The notes under the pieces: model-generated
The model's database searches: none
What the model saw: only the letters and a program-made list of their open reading frames with translations
What the model was told of the DNA's origin: nothing
Source of the DNA: Neisseria sp. 83E34
Lineage (GTDB): Bacteria > Pseudomonadota > Gammaproteobacteria > Burkholderiales > Neisseriaceae
Length of the DNA: 64,000 nt
Direction of reading: 5' to 3'
Assembly (NCBI RefSeq): GCF_001308015.1
Contig: NZ_LGYH01000001.1
Coordinates: 186,001 to 250,000, forward strand
Part shown: piece after piece, positions 4,227 to 28,629 of the stretch
How positions within the stretch are numbered: position 1 is the stretch's first letter
Layout: each line of letters starts with the position of its first letter
Position numbers and translations under genes: made by a program

Positions 4227-5006
4227 GGTAAAACTCCTTGCGTAATGTGTTGAGTATAATGATTAGCATAAAATGCTAAATTTATATATAGAAAGCATTT
4301 TCGACCTCTGTCGGTTTTGGGTCTGTTTTGCTTTTCGATGGACTCATTGTGCCAAACATTTTTTTTCTTTGCAATAAAATTAAAATGTCAAAACAAATTT
4401 GTTTATTGCATTAAAAAATGAATAAACGGTTATTCTGGTTTTGTGATGGAGCAAAAATTATCGTTTAGTGTTTAATGATGGCTGGATATTTGGCTTTTTA
4501 TTTTATTTTAATTTAATTAAAACAGTTAGTTATTTATAATGAACTTAGTTCTGATATTGTTTATATATGCATAATTTTATGCTTTTATCATTTAAAAATA
4601 TACCAAATATCACCTTTATATACCGATTGTTTAAATTTTATTTGTGTTGTATTTGTGATAATTGTAGACAATTTGGTGGTTTGGTTTTATGTAAATTGCC
4701 AGTTTTTTAGGCAATTGCTATTTTTTATGGCGATAATAGTTGATTTTATGTGATATTTGCATAAAAAATTATTTCGTAATATTCATTTTGATTATTTTTG
4801 AAATATAATTCCAATTTTTATCTTTTTGAATTTATGAATGATGACTGGATAGCATTTGCTTGTAATTTAACTAGATCCATTTTGTGGGTATGTAATTAAA
4901 TATTTTTAGGCAGCCTATTTATTCTTAGCTTAATCAGTGCTATTTTCTTTAAGGTATGCATGTTGATCTGCGTGCACTATGAGAAAAACAATTCAGGAGA
5001 ACAATA
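4227..5006. other. Long AT-rich interval between divergent genes
   Basis: These 780 bases separate the leftward TonB-C-like gene from rightward glcB. The stretch is strongly AT-rich by eye and holds no credible ORF, DUS or strong hairpin. It must contain both promoters; glcB has a clear CAGGAG ribosome-binding site. I could not assign promoters, because AT-rich hexamers occur everywhere in it. A small RNA cannot be excluded. Confidence 0.5.
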
Positions 5007-14500: not shown

Positions 14501-15070
14501 TTAACGGCGGCGGCCAAAACCGGGTTTGCCGCCCATGTTGCGTTGTTGACGCGGCTGTTGGTAGTTGTTTTGCGCGTTGTTGCTTTGGCGGTAAGCCGAT
14601 TGGTTGGCCTGCTGCGCGGCTTTTTGGCGAGGGGTCAGTTTGTTGGGGGCTTGGGCGGTTTTGCCTCGGTATTGTTGGGCGTATTGGGTGCGCACTTGTT
14701 GGGCGGTAGGGCTGTTGGCCGGGGCCTTGGTGAATTTATTAGCCAAAGCGCTGCCGATAAAGGCGCCTGCCGCGGCACCGATCAGGCTTTGCAGCAACCA
14801 GCTGCCGGTTGACGGGTCATACATATATTGTTGGCCGTCGGTGCCGGTAACAACTTCGCCGTTTTTGCCTTTTTCTTGTTCGGCAGCGGGAATGGTTTCG
14901 TTAACCGCGCTTGCGGCCAGCTGATAAACAGTGGTGTCTTGTTGAGCCTGCAGTTGGGCAATCTGTTCTTGCTGGGCTTTCACTTGGGCTTCCAGCTCGG
15001 CTTGTTTGTCGCCGCCGCATGCGGTAAGCGTGAAAGCGGCAGCGCTGATAAGGGCAAGGTATTTCTTCAT
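14501..15070 (-). CDS. Lipoprotein with coiled coil and glycine-zipper segment
   Basis: The 189-residue product has a lipoprotein signal ending in LTAC, with C18 the probable lipidated residue. A glutamine-rich coiled coil (about residues 24-45) follows. A glycine/alanine segment SLIGAAAGAFIGSALANKF (about 95-113) resembles a glycine zipper. The tail is rich in Q, N and R and ends GFGRRR. The layout suggests an envelope-associated structural protein, but I do not recognise a named family. It lies upstream of trxB in the same direction, separated by a DUS pair. Confidence 0.75.
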   Translation of the reverse strand: MKKYLALISAAAFTLTACGGDKQAELEAQVKAQQEQIAQLQAQQDTTVYQLAASAVNETIPAAEQEKGKNGEVVTGTDGQQYMYDPSTGSWLLQSLIGAAAGAFIGSALANKFTKAPANSPTAQQVRTQYAQQYRGKTAQAPNKLTPRQKAAQQANQSAYRQSNNAQNNYQQPRQQRNMGGKPGFGRRR

Positions 15071-23068: not shown

Positions 23069-23100
23069 AAAGGCCGTCTGAAAATTTTCAGACGGCCTTT
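23069..23100. terminator. AG-dialect DUS palindrome after clpB
   Basis: A perfect 32-base palindrome is built from AGGCCGTCTGAAA and its complement. This is the AG dialect, not the TG dialect used elsewhere in the window. It separates clpB from the restriction-modification locus and probably terminates clpB. Confidence 0.9.
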
Positions 23101-23149
23101 TCATGAGTTAAAATACGTTTCTTTGTGATAACTTAAGCCATCATTTACC

Positions 23150-26100
23150 ATGTCTGCATTACAAACCCTTCTTTCCCAATTTCGCGAGCTGACCCAAACC
23201 GAACGCGATAAAGGCACGGCTTTTGAGAACCTGATTATCCGTTACTTTGAAAACGAACCTTACTACCGTAGCCAATATGCCAAAGTGCAGACCTATGCCG
23301 CATGGGCGCAAGAGCATTTTGAATCACTAGGACTCAGCAGTAAAACCGATGCCGGTATTGATTTAGTTGCTACTACCCAAGCAGGTGAGTTCCATGCGAT
23401 TCAATGCAAAAACTATGCCCCAGAAAAAACCATTCAAAAAGCAGACATCGACAGTTTCTTTACTGCTTCCGGAAAACACTATTTCAACCACCGTTATATT
23501 GTGACCACTACCAACAAATGGTCATCAAATGCCCGTGCCGCGCTGATTGACCAACATATTCCGGTAGCAGTCATCAATCTGGAAGATTTGGAAAACAGCC
23601 GGATTGACTGGACACAATATCAAATTGGCGCTTCTCCCGTATTAAAAGCGCGTAAAGATTTACGCCCACACCAACAACAAGCACTTAGAAACGTGCAAAC
23701 CCGTTTTGACGGAGGGGAAACCCGAGGCAAACTGATTATGGCTTGCGGTACAGGCAAAACCTTCACCGGCTTAAAAATTGCCGAAAACATTGCAGGTGTC
23801 GGAAAGCGGGTATTGTTTTTGGTACCAAGCCTATCTTTATTAAGTCAAACCTTGCGGGAATGGACGCAAGACAGCGAAATCGCTTTAAACAGCTTTGCCG
23901 TCTGTTCCGATAGTGATGTTGGCAAAAAAGGCAAAAAAGACGAAGACGACCGTGTGCTTGTCACTACCAGCGATTTGCAATTTCCAGCCACAACCCATGC
24001 GAAAAGTTTGGCTCAAGCCATAAGCGTTGCTGAAGCCCAAGACAATCGGCAAGCTATGACCGTTGTTTATGCCACTTATCATTCTATTGATGCGATTCAT
24101 CAGGCTCAAAAACAATTTGGGCTACCTGAATTCGATCTGATTATCTGTGATGAAGCCCACCGCACCACTGGCGCAACATTCGACGGCGAAGACGAATCTG
24201 CCTTTGTCCGTATCCATGATGCCGATTACATCAAAGGTGCAAAACGTCTTTATATGACTGCCACACCGCGCATCTACGGTGAGACTGCCAAAGCCGCGGA
24301 GGGTGTGGTGTTGTATTCCATGGATGATGAAACCCATTACGGCAAAGAATTTTTCGTTCTCACTTTCTCTCAAGCCGTTTCAGACGGCCTCTTAGTTGAT
24401 TACAAAGTGATTGTGCTGGCGATTGAAGAATCACATGTCAACCGTCGTTTACAAAACCTGCTTACCGATAGCAATAACGAGCTCAAAGTCGATGATGCCG
24501 CAAAAATCGTCGGCTGCTGGAAAGCCTTGTCAAAATACGGGCTGAGCGGCGAGGATGGGGCTTTATATAACCCCATGCGTCGAGCTGTTGCCTTTTGCCA
24601 AGTAATTGAAAAAGAATACAAAGGCAGCAAACACAAAGTCAGTTCCAAACTCATCGCCGAAATGTTCCAAGCCGTGGTGGAAGAATATCAACAAGCCGAA
24701 AGCAAAGCTCTGCTGGAACACAATCCTGATTTAAAACTGCCTCCGCAATTGTCCATGAAGTGTGAAGCCGAACATGTTGACGGCAGTATGAATGCAGGTG
24801 AAAAAGAAAGTAAGCTGCAATGGCTCAAAGCAGATCTGCCCGATAATACCTGCCGCATTCTTTCCAATGTACGTTGCCTGTCTGAAGGCGTGGATGTACC
24901 TGCACTTGACGCAGTGCTGTTTCTTACACCGCGAAATTCACAAGTGGATGTCGTGCAGTCTGTCGGGCGCGTAATGCGTCGCGCCGAAGGTAAAAAACAA
25001 GGTTATGTTATTCTGCCTGTTGTGATTCCTGCCGGTATCGAAGCCGAAGATGCTTTGGATAAAAACGAAAACTACAAAGTCGTTTGGCAAGTGCTCAATG
25101 CCTTACGTGCCCATGACGACCGCTTTGATGCCATGATCAACAAACTGGAATTCAACGGCAAAGATACTCAAAAAATGGAAGTTATTGCCGTTGCAGACAA
25201 AGTACAAGCAAAGCAAAAACGCCAAAGCAAGAGTGCAAAAGCAGCAGGTAACGCACGGGGTGGCAACGCCATTGGTACAAAACCCGAACACAACCCTGCA
25301 AACCAAGAGGCCCTTGAATTCCAAATAGGCGAAATCGAACGCGCCCTATACGCCAAAATCGTCAAAAAATGCGGCAACCGCCATCACTGGGAAGATTGGG
25401 CGGGCGACATTGCCAAAATCGCCCGTACCCACATCGACAGCATCACCGCCATTCTTGAAAACCCAGCCAATAGCGCCGAACAAAACGCCTTTAACGCCTT
25501 CGCCGCCGAATTGCGCGACGACCTCAACAATGCCATTACCGATGCCGAAATCACCGAAATGCTGGCGCAGCACATGATTACCAAACCCGTGTTCGATGCT
25601 CTGTTTGAACAATACAGCTTTGCCGAGCACAACCCCATGAGCCGAGCCATGCAAAACGTGCTGGATTTATTGCAGGCTAAAAACCTGCATAAAGAGCGCA
25701 ACACCTTACAATCGTTCTACGAATCCGTTCAAATGCGGGCTTCCGGTATCGAAACCGCCGAAGGCAAACAAAAAATTATTGTCGAGCTATACGATAAATT
25801 CTTCCGTAATGCCTTCCCCCGCATGACCGAACGGCTCGGCATTGTTTATACCCCGGTTGAAGTCGTTGATTTCATCATCAAAAGCGTAGAAGACGTATTA
25901 CAAAACGAATTCGGCAGCAGCCTCAAAGACAAAGGCGTGCACATTATCGACCCCTTTACCGGCACCGGCACGTTTATTACCCGACTGTTGCAAAGCGGCA
26001 TTATTCCTGTTGACAGGCTACCTGAAAAATATCAAAACGAAATCCACGCCAACGAAATCGTTTTACTCGCCTATTACATCGCCGCCATCAACATTGAAGC

Positions 26101-27877
26101 CACCTATCACGGCATCTTGCACGGCAATATCGACGGCAAAATTTCAGACGGCCTCGATTACCAACCCTTTAACGGCATCTGTCTGACCGATACTTTCCAA
26201 ATGTACGAAAAAGGCGACATGCTCGATGAAATGCTGGTTGACAACAGCGCACGTCGCAAACGGCAGAAAGAATTAGATATCAGAGTGATTATCGGCAATC
26301 CGCCGTATTCAGCGGGGCAAGAAAGTGCCAACGACAACAATGCCAATATCGAATACCCGCATTTGGATGACCGTATTCGTACAACTTATGCCGAGCATTC
26401 CAAAGCCACCAATAAAAACGCGCTATACGACAGCTATATCCGCGCCATCCGCTGGGCTTCCGACCGCATCGGCACACAAGGTGTCATCGGATTTGTGACC
26501 AATGCCGGCTGGGTCGAGGCCAACACCGCCGACGGCTTAAGAAAATGCCTGTCTGAAGAATTCAGCAGTTTGTATATCTTTCATTTGCGCGGCAATGCGC
26601 GTACATCAGGCGAACGCCGCCGCAAAGAAAAAGACAATGTTTTCGGGCAAGGCACACGTACGCCCATTGCCATTTCCATTTTGGTGAAAAATCCCGAATC
26701 CCAAAAACAAGGACAGATTTATTTTCACGACATCGGCGACTATTTAACCCGCGAGCAAAAACTGGAAACAGTTGCCGAATTTGGCAGCATTAACGGCATT
26801 AGCGCACAAAACGCTTGGCAGCAGATCGTGCCTGATGAATTTAACGACTGGCTCAATCAACGTGATCCGAATTTTGATAACTACATTCTGCTTGGCAGTA
26901 AAGACAATGGTGATGAGAAGGTGATTTTTAGTAATTACAGTAGAGGGCTGGAAACTAATCGTGATGCGTGGTGTTACAACTCATCACCATGTCGCCTGAA
27001 AGAAAATATGGAAAATATGATTGAGTTTTACAATAGTGAAGTAAAACGTTTTCAGGTAGCCTGTGAAGTTTTATCTGAAAGTCAAAAAATTTCCATTGAT
27101 GACTTTGTCAATACAGATACAACTCAAATTAGTTGGAACAGAAGTTTAAAAGCAGATTTAGGAAAACAACGGTTCTATCAGTTTGATAAAGCCAATATTT
27201 CAACCGCAATGTACCGTCCCTATACGAAACAAGCTATATATTTTGCCAAGGGTATAAATGCTTATTTAAACCAAATGCCCAAGATGTATCCAAGTGGTAA
27301 TTTAGTTAATGAAACTATTTATTTGAGTGGCAGTGGCAATTCAGGAAAAGAATTTTCTACAATAATGACCGATGTTATTCCTGATTTGAATATGCAGCAT
27401 TCAGGCGGGCAAGGCTTCCCAAAAGATTTATATGAATTTTCAGACGGCATAGAGATAGCCGAACGAACGAACGAACGAACGAACGAACGAACGAACGAAC
27501 GAACGAACGAACGAACGAACGAACGAACGAACGAACGAACGAACGAACGAACGAACGAACGAACGAACGAACGAACGAAATTATATCAGAGTGCAGAACG
27601 AACATATCAATATCGCCATGTGCCTCTCAGTCACAGGAAACAAGGGATTCTCTGTCTTACTCACAGATACCATCCCAGATCTGCACCTCATCGGCGACGC
27701 ACAATGCTTCCCAATGTTTCTCTACGAAACGGAGCAATGAACATGACAATTTGTATTACAGGCTTGGGAACAAGCAAAGGCTTCTCCGCATTGATAACAA
27801 ACACCGTTCCCGATGTACAAATGCAGATGAACGGGCAATGCTTCCCGATGTTTCTCTACGAAACGGAGGAAGCATAA
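23150..27877 (+). CDS. Type ISP restriction-modification enzyme, nuclease-helicase-methyltransferase part, with phase-variable 3' end
   Basis: The 1575-residue product has the order of Type ISP enzymes such as LlaGI/LlaBIII. An Mrr-like nuclease comes first (D71 and QCK at 85-87). A superfamily 2 helicase follows (Walker A ACGTGKT near 199, DEAH at 334-337, MTATPR near 371, QSVGRVMRR). Then come a coupler and a gamma-type N6-adenine methyltransferase (DPFTGTGTF at 934, NPPYS at 1050), and a recognition region from about 1240. A tract of 30 CGAA units encodes repeated ERTN from residue 1438. After it the present frame is poorly conserved for about 50 residues, then enters a conserved-looking tail ending YETEEA. 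With other unit counts the end differs. The stop overlaps the next start in TAATG. Confidence 0.9.
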   Translation: MSALQTLLSQFRELTQTERDKGTAFENLIIRYFENEPYYRSQYAKVQTYAAWAQEHFESLGLSSKTDAGIDLVATTQAGEFHAIQCKNYAPEKTIQKADIDSFFTASGKHYFNHRYIVTTTNKWSSNARAALIDQHIPVAVINLEDLENSRIDWTQYQIGASPVLKARKDLRPHQQQALRNVQTRFDGGETRGKLIMACGTGKTFTGLKIAENIAGVGKRVLFLVPSLSLLSQTLREWTQDSEIALNSFAVCSDSDVGKKGKKDEDDRVLVTTSDLQFPATTHAKSLAQAISVAEAQDNRQAMTVVYATYHSIDAIHQAQKQFGLPEFDLIICDEAHRTTGATFDGEDESAFVRIHDADYIKGAKRLYMTATPRIYGETAKAAEGVVLYSMDDETHYGKEFFVLTFSQAVSDGLLVDYKVIVLAIEESHVNRRLQNLLTDSNNELKVDDAAKIVGCWKALSKYGLSGEDGALYNPMRRAVAFCQVIEKEYKGSKHKVSSKLIAEMFQAVVEEYQQAESKALLEHNPDLKLPPQLSMKCEAEHVDGSMNAGEKESKLQWLKADLPDNTCRILSNVRCLSEGVDVPALDAVLFLTPRNSQVDVVQSVGRVMRRAEGKKQGYVILPVVIPAGIEAEDALDKNENYKVVWQVLNALRAHDDRFDAMINKLEFNGKDTQKMEVIAVADKVQAKQKRQSKSAKAAGNARGGNAIGTKPEHNPANQEALEFQIGEIERALYAKIVKKCGNRHHWEDWAGDIAKIARTHIDSITAILENPANSAEQNAFNAFAAELRDDLNNAITDAEITEMLAQHMITKPVFDALFEQYSFAEHNPMSRAMQNVLDLLQAKNLHKERNTLQSFYESVQMRASGIETAEGKQKIIVELYDKFFRNAFPRMTERLGIVYTPVEVVDFIIKSVEDVLQNEFGSSLKDKGVHIIDPFTGTGTFITRLLQSGIIPVDRLPEKYQNEIHANEIVLLAYYIAAINIEATYHGILHGNIDGKISDGLDYQPFNGICLTDTFQMYEKGDMLDEMLVDNSARRKRQKELDIRVIIGNPPYSAGQESANDNNANIEYPHLDDRIRTTYAEHSKATNKNALYDSYIRAIRWASDRIGTQGVIGFVTNAGWVEANTADGLRKCLSEEFSSLYIFHLRGNARTSGERRRKEKDNVFGQGTRTPIAISILVKNPESQKQGQIYFHDIGDYLTREQKLETVAEFGSINGISAQNAWQQIVPDEFNDWLNQRDPNFDNYILLGSKDNGDEKVIFSNYSRGLETNRDAWCYNSSPCRLKENMENMIEFYNSEVKRFQVACEVLSESQKISIDDFVNTDTTQISWNRSLKADLGKQRFYQFDKANISTAMYRPYTKQAIYFAKGINAYLNQMPKMYPSGNLVNETIYLSGSGNSGKEFSTIMTDVIPDLNMQHSGGQGFPKDLYEFSDGIEIAERTNERTNERTNERTNERTNERTNERTNERTNERTNERTKLYQSAERTYQYRHVPLSHRKQGILCLTHRYHPRSAPHRRRTMLPNVSLRNGAMNMTICITGLGTSKGFSALITNTVPDVQMQMNGQCFPMFLYETEEA
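24378..24390 (-). repeat. AG-dialect DUS inside the Type ISP gene
   Basis: Exact complement of AGGCCGTCTGAAA within coding sequence; foreign to the TG dialect of the surrounding genome. Confidence 0.9.
24875..24887 (+). repeat. Near TG-type DUS inside the Type ISP gene
   Basis: TGCCTGTCTGAAG matches the local dialect at 12 of 13 bases. Confidence 0.6.
26025..26037 (+). repeat. Eikenella-dialect DUS inside the Type ISP gene
   Basis: AGGCTACCTGAAA is an exact copy of the dialect I recall for Eikenella (AG-eikDUS). A second exact copy lies at 27050-27062. Confidence 0.85.
26142..26154 (-). repeat. AG-dialect DUS inside the Type ISP gene
   Basis: Exact complement of AGGCCGTCTGAAA within the methyltransferase-coding part. 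Confidence 0.9.
26546..26558 (+). repeat. Near TG-type DUS inside the Type ISP gene
   Basis: TGCCTGTCTGAAG matches the local dialect at 12 of 13 bases. Confidence 0.6.
27050..27062 (-). repeat. Eikenella-dialect DUS inside the Type ISP gene
   Basis: Exact complement of AGGCTACCTGAAA, in the recognition-domain part of the gene. Confidence 0.85.
27438..27450 (-). repeat. AT-dialect DUS just before the repeat tract
   Basis: Exact complement of ATGCCGTCTGAAA, the meningococcal/gonococcal dialect, ending 9 bases before the CGAA tract. Confidence 0.85.
27460..27579 (+). repeat. Tetranucleotide tract, 30 x CGAA
   Basis: An uninterrupted run of 30 CGAA units (120 bases) lies in the 3' part of the Type ISP gene. 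It encodes nine ERTN units plus ERTK in the present frame. Long tetranucleotide tracts in Neisseria and Haemophilus restriction-modification genes are known slippage hotspots. Because 4 is not a multiple of 3, each gained or lost unit changes the frame downstream. Confidence 0.97.
27579..27740 (+). other. Alternative C-terminal cassette 1 (out of frame at 30 units)
   Basis: In the frame starting AAT at 27579, translation gives NYIRVQNEHINIAMCLSVTG, then GFSVLLTDTIPDLHL and QCFPMFLYETEQ, ending at TGA 27738-27740. This is the conserved motif expected near the end of Type ISP/III methyltransferases, so the frame is genuine coding. It joins the upstream enzyme only if the unit count is 29 or 32 (n = 2 mod 3), giving a product of 1528 residues at 29. 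Confidence 0.8.
27702..27868 (+). repeat. 33-base direct repeats ending the two cassettes
   Basis: Bases 27702-27734 and 27836-27868 match at 32 of 33 positions and lie 134 bases apart. They encode the shared QCFPMFLYETE end of both cassettes. Recombination between them would delete 134 bases and leave one cassette. Confidence 0.85.
27743..27877 (+). other. C-terminal cassette 2 (in frame at 30 units; also a small coupled ORF)
   Basis: This segment encodes MTICITGLGTSKGFSALI, then NTVPDVQMQMNGQCFPMFLYETEEA. It is homologous to cassette 1 and to an upstream copy at about 27311-27442. At the present unit count it forms the enzyme's C-terminus. It can also be read alone as a 44-residue ORF: its ATG lies 2 bases after the cassette 1 stop, with GGAG 8 bases upstream. 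Confidence 0.7.
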
Positions 27878-28629
27878 TGGCAACGCAAAAAGATTTATTT
27901 GCCGCAGATGCTGCACAGAGGCCGTCTGAAACAGAAAATGCGCCGAAGCAGAAAAAACTGGTACGTCGTTCTGCTATCACCGATGAAGCTTTAACGCATT
28001 TCCGCGAGCCTTATTCGGCCGAAGATGCTGAAAACATCAGTAAAGAAGATATTTTCTACTATATCTACGGACTGCTGCACAGCGAGGAATACCGCGAGCG
28101 CTATGCCGATAATTTGAGCAAACAGTTGCCGCGCATTCCACGTATGAAACACTATGTCGATTTTGCCGCATTCAGCCAAGCCGGACGTGATCTGGCTGCA
28201 TTGCATCTGAATTATGAAAGCGTGCCGATGTATCAGGACATCAAACTTTCAGGCAGCTTGAAAGGGTTAAAACTGACCTCTCAGCAAATTATTGGCGGCG
28301 AAGATGAAGATTTCCGCGTAGTGAAAATGAAGTTTGCTAAAAAAGACGACAAAACCAAAGTCGTCTATAACGGCAAAATCACGGTGGAAAATATTCCCGA
28401 AGCTGCCTACGACTACATCGTTAACGGCAAATCGGCAATCGAATGGGTGATGGAACGCCAAGCGGTGACTACCGACAAAAAATCCGGCATTACCAACGAT
28501 GCCAACGATTGGGCACGCGAAACGATGGGCAATGCGCGTTATCCGTTAGAATTGTTGCTGAGGGTGGTTACAGTAAGCTTGGAAACCCAGAAAATAGTGA
28601 ACAACTTACCTAAGTTGGAGATTTTATAG
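27877..28629 (+). CDS. Type ISP C-terminal specificity domain as a separate gene
   Basis: The 250-residue product matches the C-terminal part of Type ISP enzymes: ITDEALTHFREPY, KEDIFYYIYGLLHSEEYRERYA, LPRIP, FSQAGRDLAALHLNYE and a final SIVMERQAV-like WVMERQAVTTDKKSGI region. In LlaGI-type enzymes this is part of one polypeptide. Here it starts in TAATG overlap with the preceding stop, with GGAGGA 6 bases upstream, so translation is coupled and the subunit probably assembles with the large one. When the CGAA count is 28 or 31 (n = 1 mod 3) the large gene runs straight into this frame with no stop, giving an 1827-residue fusion at 31. An AG-dialect DUS lies in codons at 27919-27931. Confidence 0.85.
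   Translation: MATQKDLFAADAAQRPSETENAPKQKKLVRRSAITDEALTHFREPYSAEDAENISKEDIFYYIYGLLHSEEYRERYADNLSKQLPRIPRMKHYVDFAAFSQAGRDLAALHLNYESVPMYQDIKLSGSLKGLKLTSQQIIGGEDEDFRVVKMKFAKKDDKTKVVYNGKITVENIPEAAYDYIVNGKSAIEWVMERQAVTTDKKSGITNDANDWARETMGNARYPLELLLRVVTVSLETQKIVNNLPKLEIL
27919..27931 (+). repeat. AG-dialect DUS in the specificity gene
   Basis: Exact AGGCCGTCTGAAA in the 5' part of the gene, encoding part of the linker after MATQKDLF. Confidence 0.9.

Follow-up and report, generated by a model that had tools for sequence, protein, structure and literature searches.

A CGAA repeat that may select, by reading frame, among three DNA-reading loops in a putatively phase-variable Type ISP restriction-modification locus

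Known phase-variable methyltransferases are mostly switched ON and OFF, or have their specificity reshuffled by recombination. What, then, might slippage change when the repeat lies near the 3′ end of the gene? In the window, i.e. the whole 64,000-nucleotide stretch of Neisseria sp. 83E34 DNA analysed here, Tandem Repeats Finder returned a single tandem array, CGAA × 30.0 with 100% matches (Table 1), in agreement with an earlier sequence-only reading that had counted 30 units near the 3′ end of this gene. The unit is not divisible by three and lies inside coding sequence, so that the unit count alters the product, as in phase-variable restriction-modification genes. Read from position 23150, 30 units give a product of 1575 amino acids (stop ending at 27877), 29 units one of 1528 (stop 27740) and 31 units one of 1827 (stop 28629), which reproduces the three lengths proposed earlier, and all unit counts from 24 to 36 fall into these 1575-, 1528- and 1827-type classes. 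The catalytic domains are retained in every frame and the differences are confined to the recognition end, again as had been proposed; on this frame reading the locus has the layout of C-terminal phase variation, with a 3′-ward repeat and C-terminal residues in three frames.

Table 1. Features of the restriction-modification locus (positions in the window; n, number of CGAA units).
Feature	Position	Strand	Description and basis
ORF1 at 30 units	23150..27877	+	1575 aa; order: Mrr nuclease, SF2 helicase, coupler, N6-adenine methyltransferase, TRD first half, cassette 0, (NERT)n, out-of-frame cassette 1, cassette 2; frames, homology, Pfam
Mrr_cat_2 nuclease domain	23252..23632	+	aa 35–161; Pfam PF13156, E 5.5e-40
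ResIII/SF2 helicase first domain	23654..24271	+	aa 169–374; Pfam PF04851
Helicase_C	within ORF1	+	aa 537–611; Pfam
Type ISP coupler domain	25385..25765	+	aa 746–872; Pfam PF22240 ISP_coupler, E 7.1e-48
N6-adenine methyltransferase domain	25772..26341	+	aa 875–1064, NPPY in translation; Pfam PF02384, PF07669
933-bp block	26903..27835	+	TRD core, tract and cassettes; differs from near relative L022
Type_ISP_C specificity domain, first half	26924..27445	+	aa 1259–1432, profile 2–157 of 342; Pfam PF18135
Cassette 0	27305..27436	+	Loop VI segment, N at LlaGI-1368 position (PDLNMQHSGGQGFP); alignments
(CGAA)30 tract	27460..27579	+	NERT repeats encoded in every frame
Cassette 1 frame	27580..27740	+	read when n = 2 mod 3; H in the Loop VI segment (PDLHLIGDAQCFP); TGA stop
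Junction	27731..27740	+	GGAG then ATGA, cassette 1 stop overlapping start in cassette 2 frame
Cassette 2 frame	27737..27877	+	read when n = 0 mod 3 (as at present); Q in the Loop VI segment (PDVQMQMNGQCFP); TAA stop
Junction	27865..27879	+	GGAGG then TAATG, cassette 2 stop overlapping ORF2 start
ORF2	27877..28629	+	250 codons from ATG at 27877, TRD second half (Type_ISP_C 158–341); Pfam PF18135, frames, homology

ORF1 matched LlaBIII (4xqk_A) with 1106.9 bits and homology across residues 7–1439, a further Type ISP structure (5ffj_A) was also matched, and Pfam returned the Type ISP domain order (Mrr nuclease, SF2 helicase, coupler, gamma N6-methyltransferase, Type_ISP_C). Homology and domains therefore place the enzyme in the LlaBIII/LlaGI family, and its earlier assignment to Type ISP holds. 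What had been taken for a following gene is, however, no separate gene but encodes the rest of the specificity domain begun in ORF1 (PF18135 positions 158–341 versus 2–157 in ORF1), and we infer that it comprises the end of the target-recognition domain (TRD) core together with the guide. Because ORF2 is this remaining half, the CGAA tract divides the TRD, the whole PF18135 domain stands in one chain only at n = 1 mod 3, where ORF2 is fused onto ORF1, and the two shorter states are split enzymes, for which translational coupling probably supplies the missing half of the TRD. At 30 units the locus thus lacks the single polypeptide of Type ISP enzymes, its specificity domain being divided between ORF1 and ORF2, but this polypeptide is present when n = 1 mod 3, as in a fused relative (L039). 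Judged by its sequence, the locus is of Type ISP descent, with a single chain possible by frame, and is currently no canonical member. LlaGI and LlaBIII share its domain content and TRD (PMC4872093), but are single chains with one Loop VI in the alignments, and the available text of that paper does not mention a repeat.

The sequence-only reading had recognised two cassettes; we count three, as the segment ahead of the tract is homologous to both of those behind it. These cassettes are tandem copies of a ~43-residue segment bearing Loop VI, each in a different frame, and they align onto Loop VI of LlaGI and LlaBIII, which reads the base at +3 in both enzymes (LlaGI 'SDMHVIGGQ', H1368; LlaBIII 'PDVNLFTGGSQ', N1360; PMC4872093). 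The residues at the base-reading position are N, H and Q in cassettes 0, 1 and 2 respectively. A frameshift at the tract adds a further copy of a TRD segment carrying base-reading residues, as in Hpy99XIV-like switches. A search of the own genome with one cassette peptide returned no silent donor cassettes beyond the three of the locus.

We consider it likely that this Type ISP locus is phase-variable and that its repeat works as a frame selector with three positions, setting which Loop VI the TRD uses to read DNA; specificity would thereby be switched. At n = 1 mod 3, the reading frame crosses both spare cassettes out of phase and continues into ORF2, giving one chain, presumably active, with cassette 0 as its sole Loop VI. 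At n = 2 mod 3, cassette 1 is appended and the frame closes at its end; at n = 0 mod 3, where the locus now stands, cassette 2 is appended and the stop lies at the start of ORF2. In both of these states ORF2 would be made by termination-reinitiation at the overlapping stop and start codons and would bind as a second chain. The appended cassette may push cassette 0 out of the recognition core, purely by analogy with what has been proposed for the additional TRD copy in Type IIG enzymes of H. pylori. Because the cassettes differ (N, H, Q) at the residue that reads +3, slippage is predicted to alter the base requirement at +3 and hence which sites are methylated and restricted. Judging by the two solved relatives, a loop with N is expected to prefer A:T and one with H to prefer G:C, an assignment that covers N and H only. 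Sister loci with one spare cassette would have two loops and a premature-stop state. The cassettes differ at further positions too, making other effects possible, and splitting of the TRD might inactivate the enzyme, which would speak against the selector.

If the frame selector is real, one tract gives three specificities through frame choice alone, and a population would therefore always be mixed in its restriction and methylation patterns. The base at +3 for each unit count is an exact and testable prediction, and the locus would show how nature exchanges a single recognition loop within a restriction enzyme; the engineering of new specificity has been called an unaccomplished challenge (PMC4872093).

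The layout was found in eight loci, which belong to three genera and use three repeat units, none of them a multiple of three in length: CGAA in five loci of the genus, ACGCA in L024 and in L039 of Acinetobacter, and AGCAGCG in L032 of Pseudoxanthomonas. Exact tracts of at least six CGAA units occurred in five of 46 genus genomes, in all five at this locus only, with counts of 9, 22, 30, 33 and 68 (one genome per species, and so a between-species comparison). The frame map was consistent in 8/8 tract-bearing loci (L026 being one): frames yield cassette 1, cassette 2 or the fusion in the four three-cassette loci, and cassette 1, the fusion or an early stop in the four with two cassettes. At present three loci stand in the cassette 1 frame, two in that of cassette 2, two in the early stop and one (L039) in the fused frame. 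A GGAG- or GAGG-like element with a start codon marks all 12 junctions of the eight loci (a raw count), the start codon overlapping the stop in ten and lying 5 nt behind it in two. The residue at the reading position was different in every cassette of a locus (9/9 multi-cassette loci), a pattern for which family frequencies at position 1368 give a P of only ~0.02 in loci that are related; residues at this position were counted in 77 of the 79 single-cassette loci, excluding L090 and L094 (HMM scores below 12). In a predicted structure of the fused Acinetobacter TRD, which covers the natural fusion only, cassette 0 had a pLDDT of only ~42–52 (21 of 25 first-chosen rows used; L031 and L077 were out, with stop codons in the stretch, and L030 and L033 were dropped with L031).

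Seven of the 46 genus genomes carried the multi-cassette form, one of them (L027) as a deletion wreck without tract; two genus matches, G057 (a fragment) and G082 (31% over part), were left aside. In a genome-contig scan (best 80 of at least 245 matches) the form appeared in two of 80 loci, 77 having one cassette and one (L066) none, and 0/79 single-cassette loci had a repeat tract at 400 nt or less from where the cassette starts. A class-wide sample matched in 18/369 genomes (own included) and an order-wide one in 31/399 (own and two known genus genomes included). Among the 56 new loci from both samples, read on both strands with some weaker matches without assigned locus left out, 41 had exactly one cassette, 15 had none and 0 had two. 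Plasmid records matched ORF2 in 241 cases and the H-type cassette in 80; the four plasmid loci inspected had one cassette each, none being multi-cassette, and as they have no annotated CDS spanning the whole enzyme their genes may be broken. Phage records gave two matches, both unannotated Listeria phages, and viral contigs two loci with one cassette each. We lean only slightly towards the fullest version of the frame selector, i.e. a ternary specificity switch without an OFF state, in which three natural loops in three frames would each be joined to a shared guide by fusion or translational coupling, the device having been built or passed on among beta- and gammaproteobacteria, using three different repeat units.

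In its own frame, cassette 1 had a pN/pS of 0.16 (seven loci) and cassette 2 one of 0.11 (two loci) or 0.30 (three loci), with values above 1 in the shifted frames; these estimates are rough, synonymous sites being saturated in several cassette 1 pairs. Such substitution patterns place the cassettes, each in its own frame, under purifying selection. Both needed alternative frames stayed open across the cassettes in 0/20,000 synonymous recodings of this locus, and across the three-cassette loci the null P was at most 4e-4, with codons treated as independent. Openness of the fused frame through cassette 1 gave a null P of 0.008–0.15 per locus and, taken alone, was not below 0.05 in two of the eight loci (L039, 0.059; L032, 0.148). 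The locus would offer an example of selection preserving the meaning of three frames that overlap.

A plain ON/OFF switch, with activity only in the fused frame (n = 1 mod 3) via cassette 0 and the cassette frames as inactive truncations, is the best of the alternatives and still unlikely. It leaves unexplained the purifying selection on the cassettes in their own frames, their differing base-reading residues and the SD-like overlapping junctions. Spare recognition loops would be superfluous for such a switch, and just one of the eight snapshots shows the fusion. Taken together, the paralogy of the Loop VI cassettes, the purifying selection on them and the recurrence of the three-frame layout in three genera speak for a switch of specificity rather than a plain ON/OFF switch; the earlier suggestion that slippage could switch specificity or activity mode rather than simply turning the enzyme off is strengthened to that extent, but is incomplete as regards the split-enzyme states.

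It is less probable again, and in our view doubtful, that the switch concerns the mode of activity, split and fused enzymes sharing one site and differing in restriction, translocation or methylation. Because DNA is directed to the ATPase by the guide of LlaGI and LlaBIII (PMC4872093), a freed guide could uncouple restriction from methylation, and H. pylori HP0669, a Type ISP piece with methyltransferase and specificity domains, methylates alone; such a switch, however, has no need of cassettes with differing reading residues.

The TRD block has undergone exchange between close relatives: DNA on both sides of the 933-bp block is ~93% identical to that of the near relative L022, whereas the coding part of the block ahead of the tract has 38–63% protein identity, and an 83% DNA match persists at 27407–27734. 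The locus also bears a foreign DNA-uptake-sequence dialect, and a decayed extra ORF2 end is present in L024. Such traits would fit spare cassettes that are functionless 3′ ends left over from repeated exchange of the recognition domain, but this debris would not be expected to hold pN/pS near 0.1–0.3, to leave all three frames open or to show the same frame order in three genera; it is the least probable explanation by our estimate.

The frame selector has precedents elsewhere. In H. pylori JHP1272 (Hpy99XIV) a second repeat adds a copy of part of the TRD and the motif changes from GGWTAA to GGWCNA, and in HP1353-HP1354 (HpyAXVI) it changes from CRTTRA to CRTCNA; the added copy is thought to displace or substitute the resident one, the motif change having been measured in those enzymes (PMC3936762). 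They are, however, Type IIG enzymes with homopolymers, one extra segment (two specificities) and a separate ON/OFF tract, and neither a split guide domain nor three-frame cassettes are described in the available text (PMC3936762). The present enzyme is no Type IIG host, as helicase and ISP coupler are present, and by analogy would work like an Hpy99XIV-type switch without being a member. In the Type I system NgoAV of N. gonorrhoeae, slippage likewise splits or fuses the specificity protein and alters its motif (GCAN8TGC to GCAN7STCA), but in a polyG tract of HsdS; hsdS2 is reported as not encoding an active protein, and paralogous loop cassettes are not described in the text at hand (PMC9577141). 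C-terminal phase variation in N. gonorrhoeae (NGK_1211/NGK_1212 and others) shares the near-3′ repeat and the three frames with different C-termini, one example fusing with the next ORF, but involves homopolymers in a membrane protein, ispH, a mafB cassette and a pilin cassette, with no restriction enzymes, and the parts of the paper at hand describe no paralogous alternative domains (PMC5320596). CGAA and ACGCA are absent from the main text of the Neisseria phasome paper (PMC5953494), and no title or abstract describing the layout was found among the matches listed from mainly open-access literature. The earlier reading, which knew of no such layout, leaves these precedents out of account (PMC5320596, PMC9577141 and above all PMC3936762). 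As far as the available text of these papers goes, the three-frame Type ISP form is a new version of the kind of switch seen in NgoAV and in the Type IIG enzymes of H. pylori. Two other homopolymer tracts in relatives, a G9 directly after the stop codon of an ORF from Fibrobacter (L088) and a G9 within the methyltransferase of L113, were set aside.

The tract of 30 CGAA units, all perfect, is the sole tandem array in the scanned window and lies inside ORF1, the predicted product of which is a Type ISP restriction-modification family enzyme comprising an Mrr nuclease, an SF2 helicase, the ISP coupler, an N6-adenine methyltransferase and the first half of Type_ISP_C, the Pfam specificity domain. 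Its closest solved structures by sequence are LlaBIII (1106.9 bits) and LlaGI (1060.6 bits). The unit number and product lengths of the sequence-only reading were correct on recount: the unit count alone sets a product of 1575 aa (30 units, the present state, ending in cassette 2), 1528 aa (29 units, ending in cassette 1) or 1827 aa (31 units, the fused frame, running into ORF2), and from 24 to 36 units the product always belonged to one of these three classes.

Coordinates of the features described (rc, reverse complement)
Feature	Sequence	Position	Detail
ORF1 start	window	23150
Cassette 0	window	27305-27436	before tract
CGAA tract	window	27460-27579	30 units
ORF2	window	27877-28629	ATG to end of stop; 250 aa
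Identity to L022	window	through 26902, resuming at 27836	~93% DNA
Divergent block	window	26903-27835	933 bp
Remaining match to L022 in block	window	27407-27734	83% DNA
GCCGTCTGAA copies	window	23073-27930	6 copies
Second ORF2 3′ end	L024 (G019)	14794-15005	decayed
Locus wreck	L027 (G024), rc	4300-4850	no tract
G9	L113 (G128), rc	~539	in frame

Two cassettes had been recognized behind the tract; both are real, but there is a third, cassette 0, which precedes the tract and is homologous to both. The three copies, of ~43 residues each, span Loop VI of the target-recognition domain (TRD) in the alignment with LlaGI and LlaBIII, whose positionally equivalent residues H1368 and N1360, respectively, read base pair +3 (PMC4872093). 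At the LlaGI-1368 position the window carries N, H and Q in cassettes 0, 1 and 2, and the residue is never repeated within a locus in any of the nine multi-cassette loci, the others having E/H (L022, L023, L024 and L027), E/H/Q (L025), N/H/E (L026), E/Q/H (L039, Acinetobacter) and D/H (L032, Pseudoxanthomonas). Random draws from the frequencies in 77 single-cassette loci (H 25, Q 19, N 9, D 8, E 6, G 5, others 5) gave this all-different pattern with P ~0.02, a value that ignores kinship of the loci and is weak alone. The sets look like collections of natural loop alleles, because single-cassette relatives with full-length open frames have similar loops, i.e. EMISKGQ in L028 and L029 (1694 and 1643 aa), HSNGDAQ in L150 (1688 aa) and HVNGDAQ in L160 (1694 aa). 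L039 carries its H-type and Q-type cassettes in the opposite order (E, Q, H) to the window and L025 (N or E followed by H and Q), and cassettes may therefore be shuffled as units.

The three frames behind the tract were traced to their first stop in eight tract-bearing loci. Four with two spare cassettes (window, L025, L026 and L039) offer cassette 1, cassette 2 or a frame past both into ORF2, whereas four with one spare cassette (L022, L023, L024 and L032) offer cassette 1, ORF2 or a stop 9–18 codons on. As deposited, three loci read cassette 1, two read cassette 2 (the window among them), one is fused and two stop early. All 12 cassette–cassette and cassette–ORF2 junctions pair a GGAG- or GAGG-like element with a downstream start codon; in 10 the start and stop codons overlap (ATGA or TAATG), and in the other two the start comes 5 nt after the stop. 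Such an arrangement is the usual signature of termination–reinitiation and makes the junctions candidate sites for it.

Both spare cassettes are conserved in their own frames, with pN/pS of 0.16 for cassette 1 (seven loci; 1.5 and 2.8 in the other frames) and of 0.11 (window versus L025) and 0.30 (three loci) for cassette 2 (> 1 in shifted frames), these ratios being rough as several pairs are saturated at synonymous sites. Openness was assessed against synonymous recoding of the cassettes with the codon usage of each locus (20 000 draws). A fused frame open through cassette 1 was rare in the window (P = 0.0109), L025 (0.0092), L026 (0.0080) and L024 (0.0088), and less so in L022 (0.027), L023 (0.042), L039 (0.059) and L032 (0.148); both needed frames of the three-cassette loci were open together in 0 (window), 8 (L025), 0 (L026) and 0 (L039) draws. 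Open frames are not a general property of cassette sequence, since the third frame of two-cassette loci holds 5–7 stops. The main rival explanation, an ON/OFF switch with the fused frame as ON, accounts for that frame but leaves unexplained the upkeep of two spare, differently reading loops.

ORF2, previously taken for a following gene, is indeed the ORF entered at 31 units, but it matches Type_ISP_C positions 158–341 and so continues the best ORF1 stretch, which ends at 157. It aligns with LlaGI chain positions 1225–1404, 2 short of the LlaGI end, and from published subdomain borders we infer that it would comprise the last part of the TRD core together with the guide. The break between the ORFs lies within the linker that follows the cassette; in L028 and L029, relatives with a single chain, this linker connects both parts directly.

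Beside the observed frames, homology, conservation and selection, we propose that in the cassette states ORF2 would be produced by reinitiation, that the split halves of the enzyme would assemble, and that the appended cassette would replace cassette 0, so that the base read at +3 would differ among the three states. A measured precedent for replacement comes from Helicobacter pylori Type IIG enzymes, in which repair of the second frameshift adds a segment resembling part of the TRD and the motif changes, from GGWTAA to GGWCNA in JHP1272 (GGWTAA still being partly modified) and from CRTTRA to CRTCNA in HP1353-HP1354 (PMC3936762). Specificity switching through slippage is thus already described for H. 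pylori Type IIG and NgoAV (PMC3936762, PMC9577141), as is C-terminal phase variation fusing to the next ORF in gonococci (PMC5320596). As far as our searches of the literature show, what is new is that Type ISP enzymes have such a layout, that alternative recognition loops are packed into all three frames, that the guide domain is split off behind coupled start codons, and that the layout recurs with different repeat units.

Relatives of ORF2 were found in 7 of 46 genus genomes. Five of the 46 have exact CGAA tracts of at least six units, exclusively at this locus (9, 22, 30, 33 and 68 units), and one carries ACGCA × 11 there. Outside the family, among the best 80 of 245 loci in a scan of genome contigs, two further tract loci were detected, in Acinetobacter tjernbergiae (GCAAC × 19, the same pentanucleotide as ACGCA; three cassettes, deposited in the fused frame) and Pseudoxanthomonas broegbernensis (heptanucleotide AGCAGCG × 13; two cassettes). 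No repeat tract lay within 400 nt of the cassette start in 79 single-cassette loci. Three different units, none a multiple of three, thus occupy one place, which is good evidence that slippage itself is a selected property. The G9 run in the methyltransferase part of L113, a single-cassette Type ISP relative, is possibly an ordinary ON/OFF tract. The seventh genome holds the wrecked locus L027, which has lost the tract and ~residues 43–1386 of ORF1; its remains are in the fused frame.

The nearest relative, L022, shares the neighbours clpB and an aldo/keto reductase, and diverges from the window in a sharply bounded block containing the TRD core, tract and cassettes, where protein identity before the tract is 38–63%. 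Every copy of GCCGTCTGAA in the 64 kb (five AG-DUS, one AT-DUS) lies in or beside the locus, whereas the host's own uptake sequence, TGCCTGTCTGAA, occurs 59 times, twice within it; this foreign uptake dialect sets 23071-27930 apart as an island, and the probable source of the locus is therefore a Neisseria that uses AG-DUS. Genome-wide, GCCGTCTGAA has 373 copies, which seem clustered at the places listed first. TGCCTGTCTGAA agrees with wadDUS, the N. wadsworthii dialect, which has been described as an AT-DUS into which a T is inserted. The decayed copy in L024, ~6 kb downstream of the intact ORF2, is perhaps a trace of earlier exchange or duplication.
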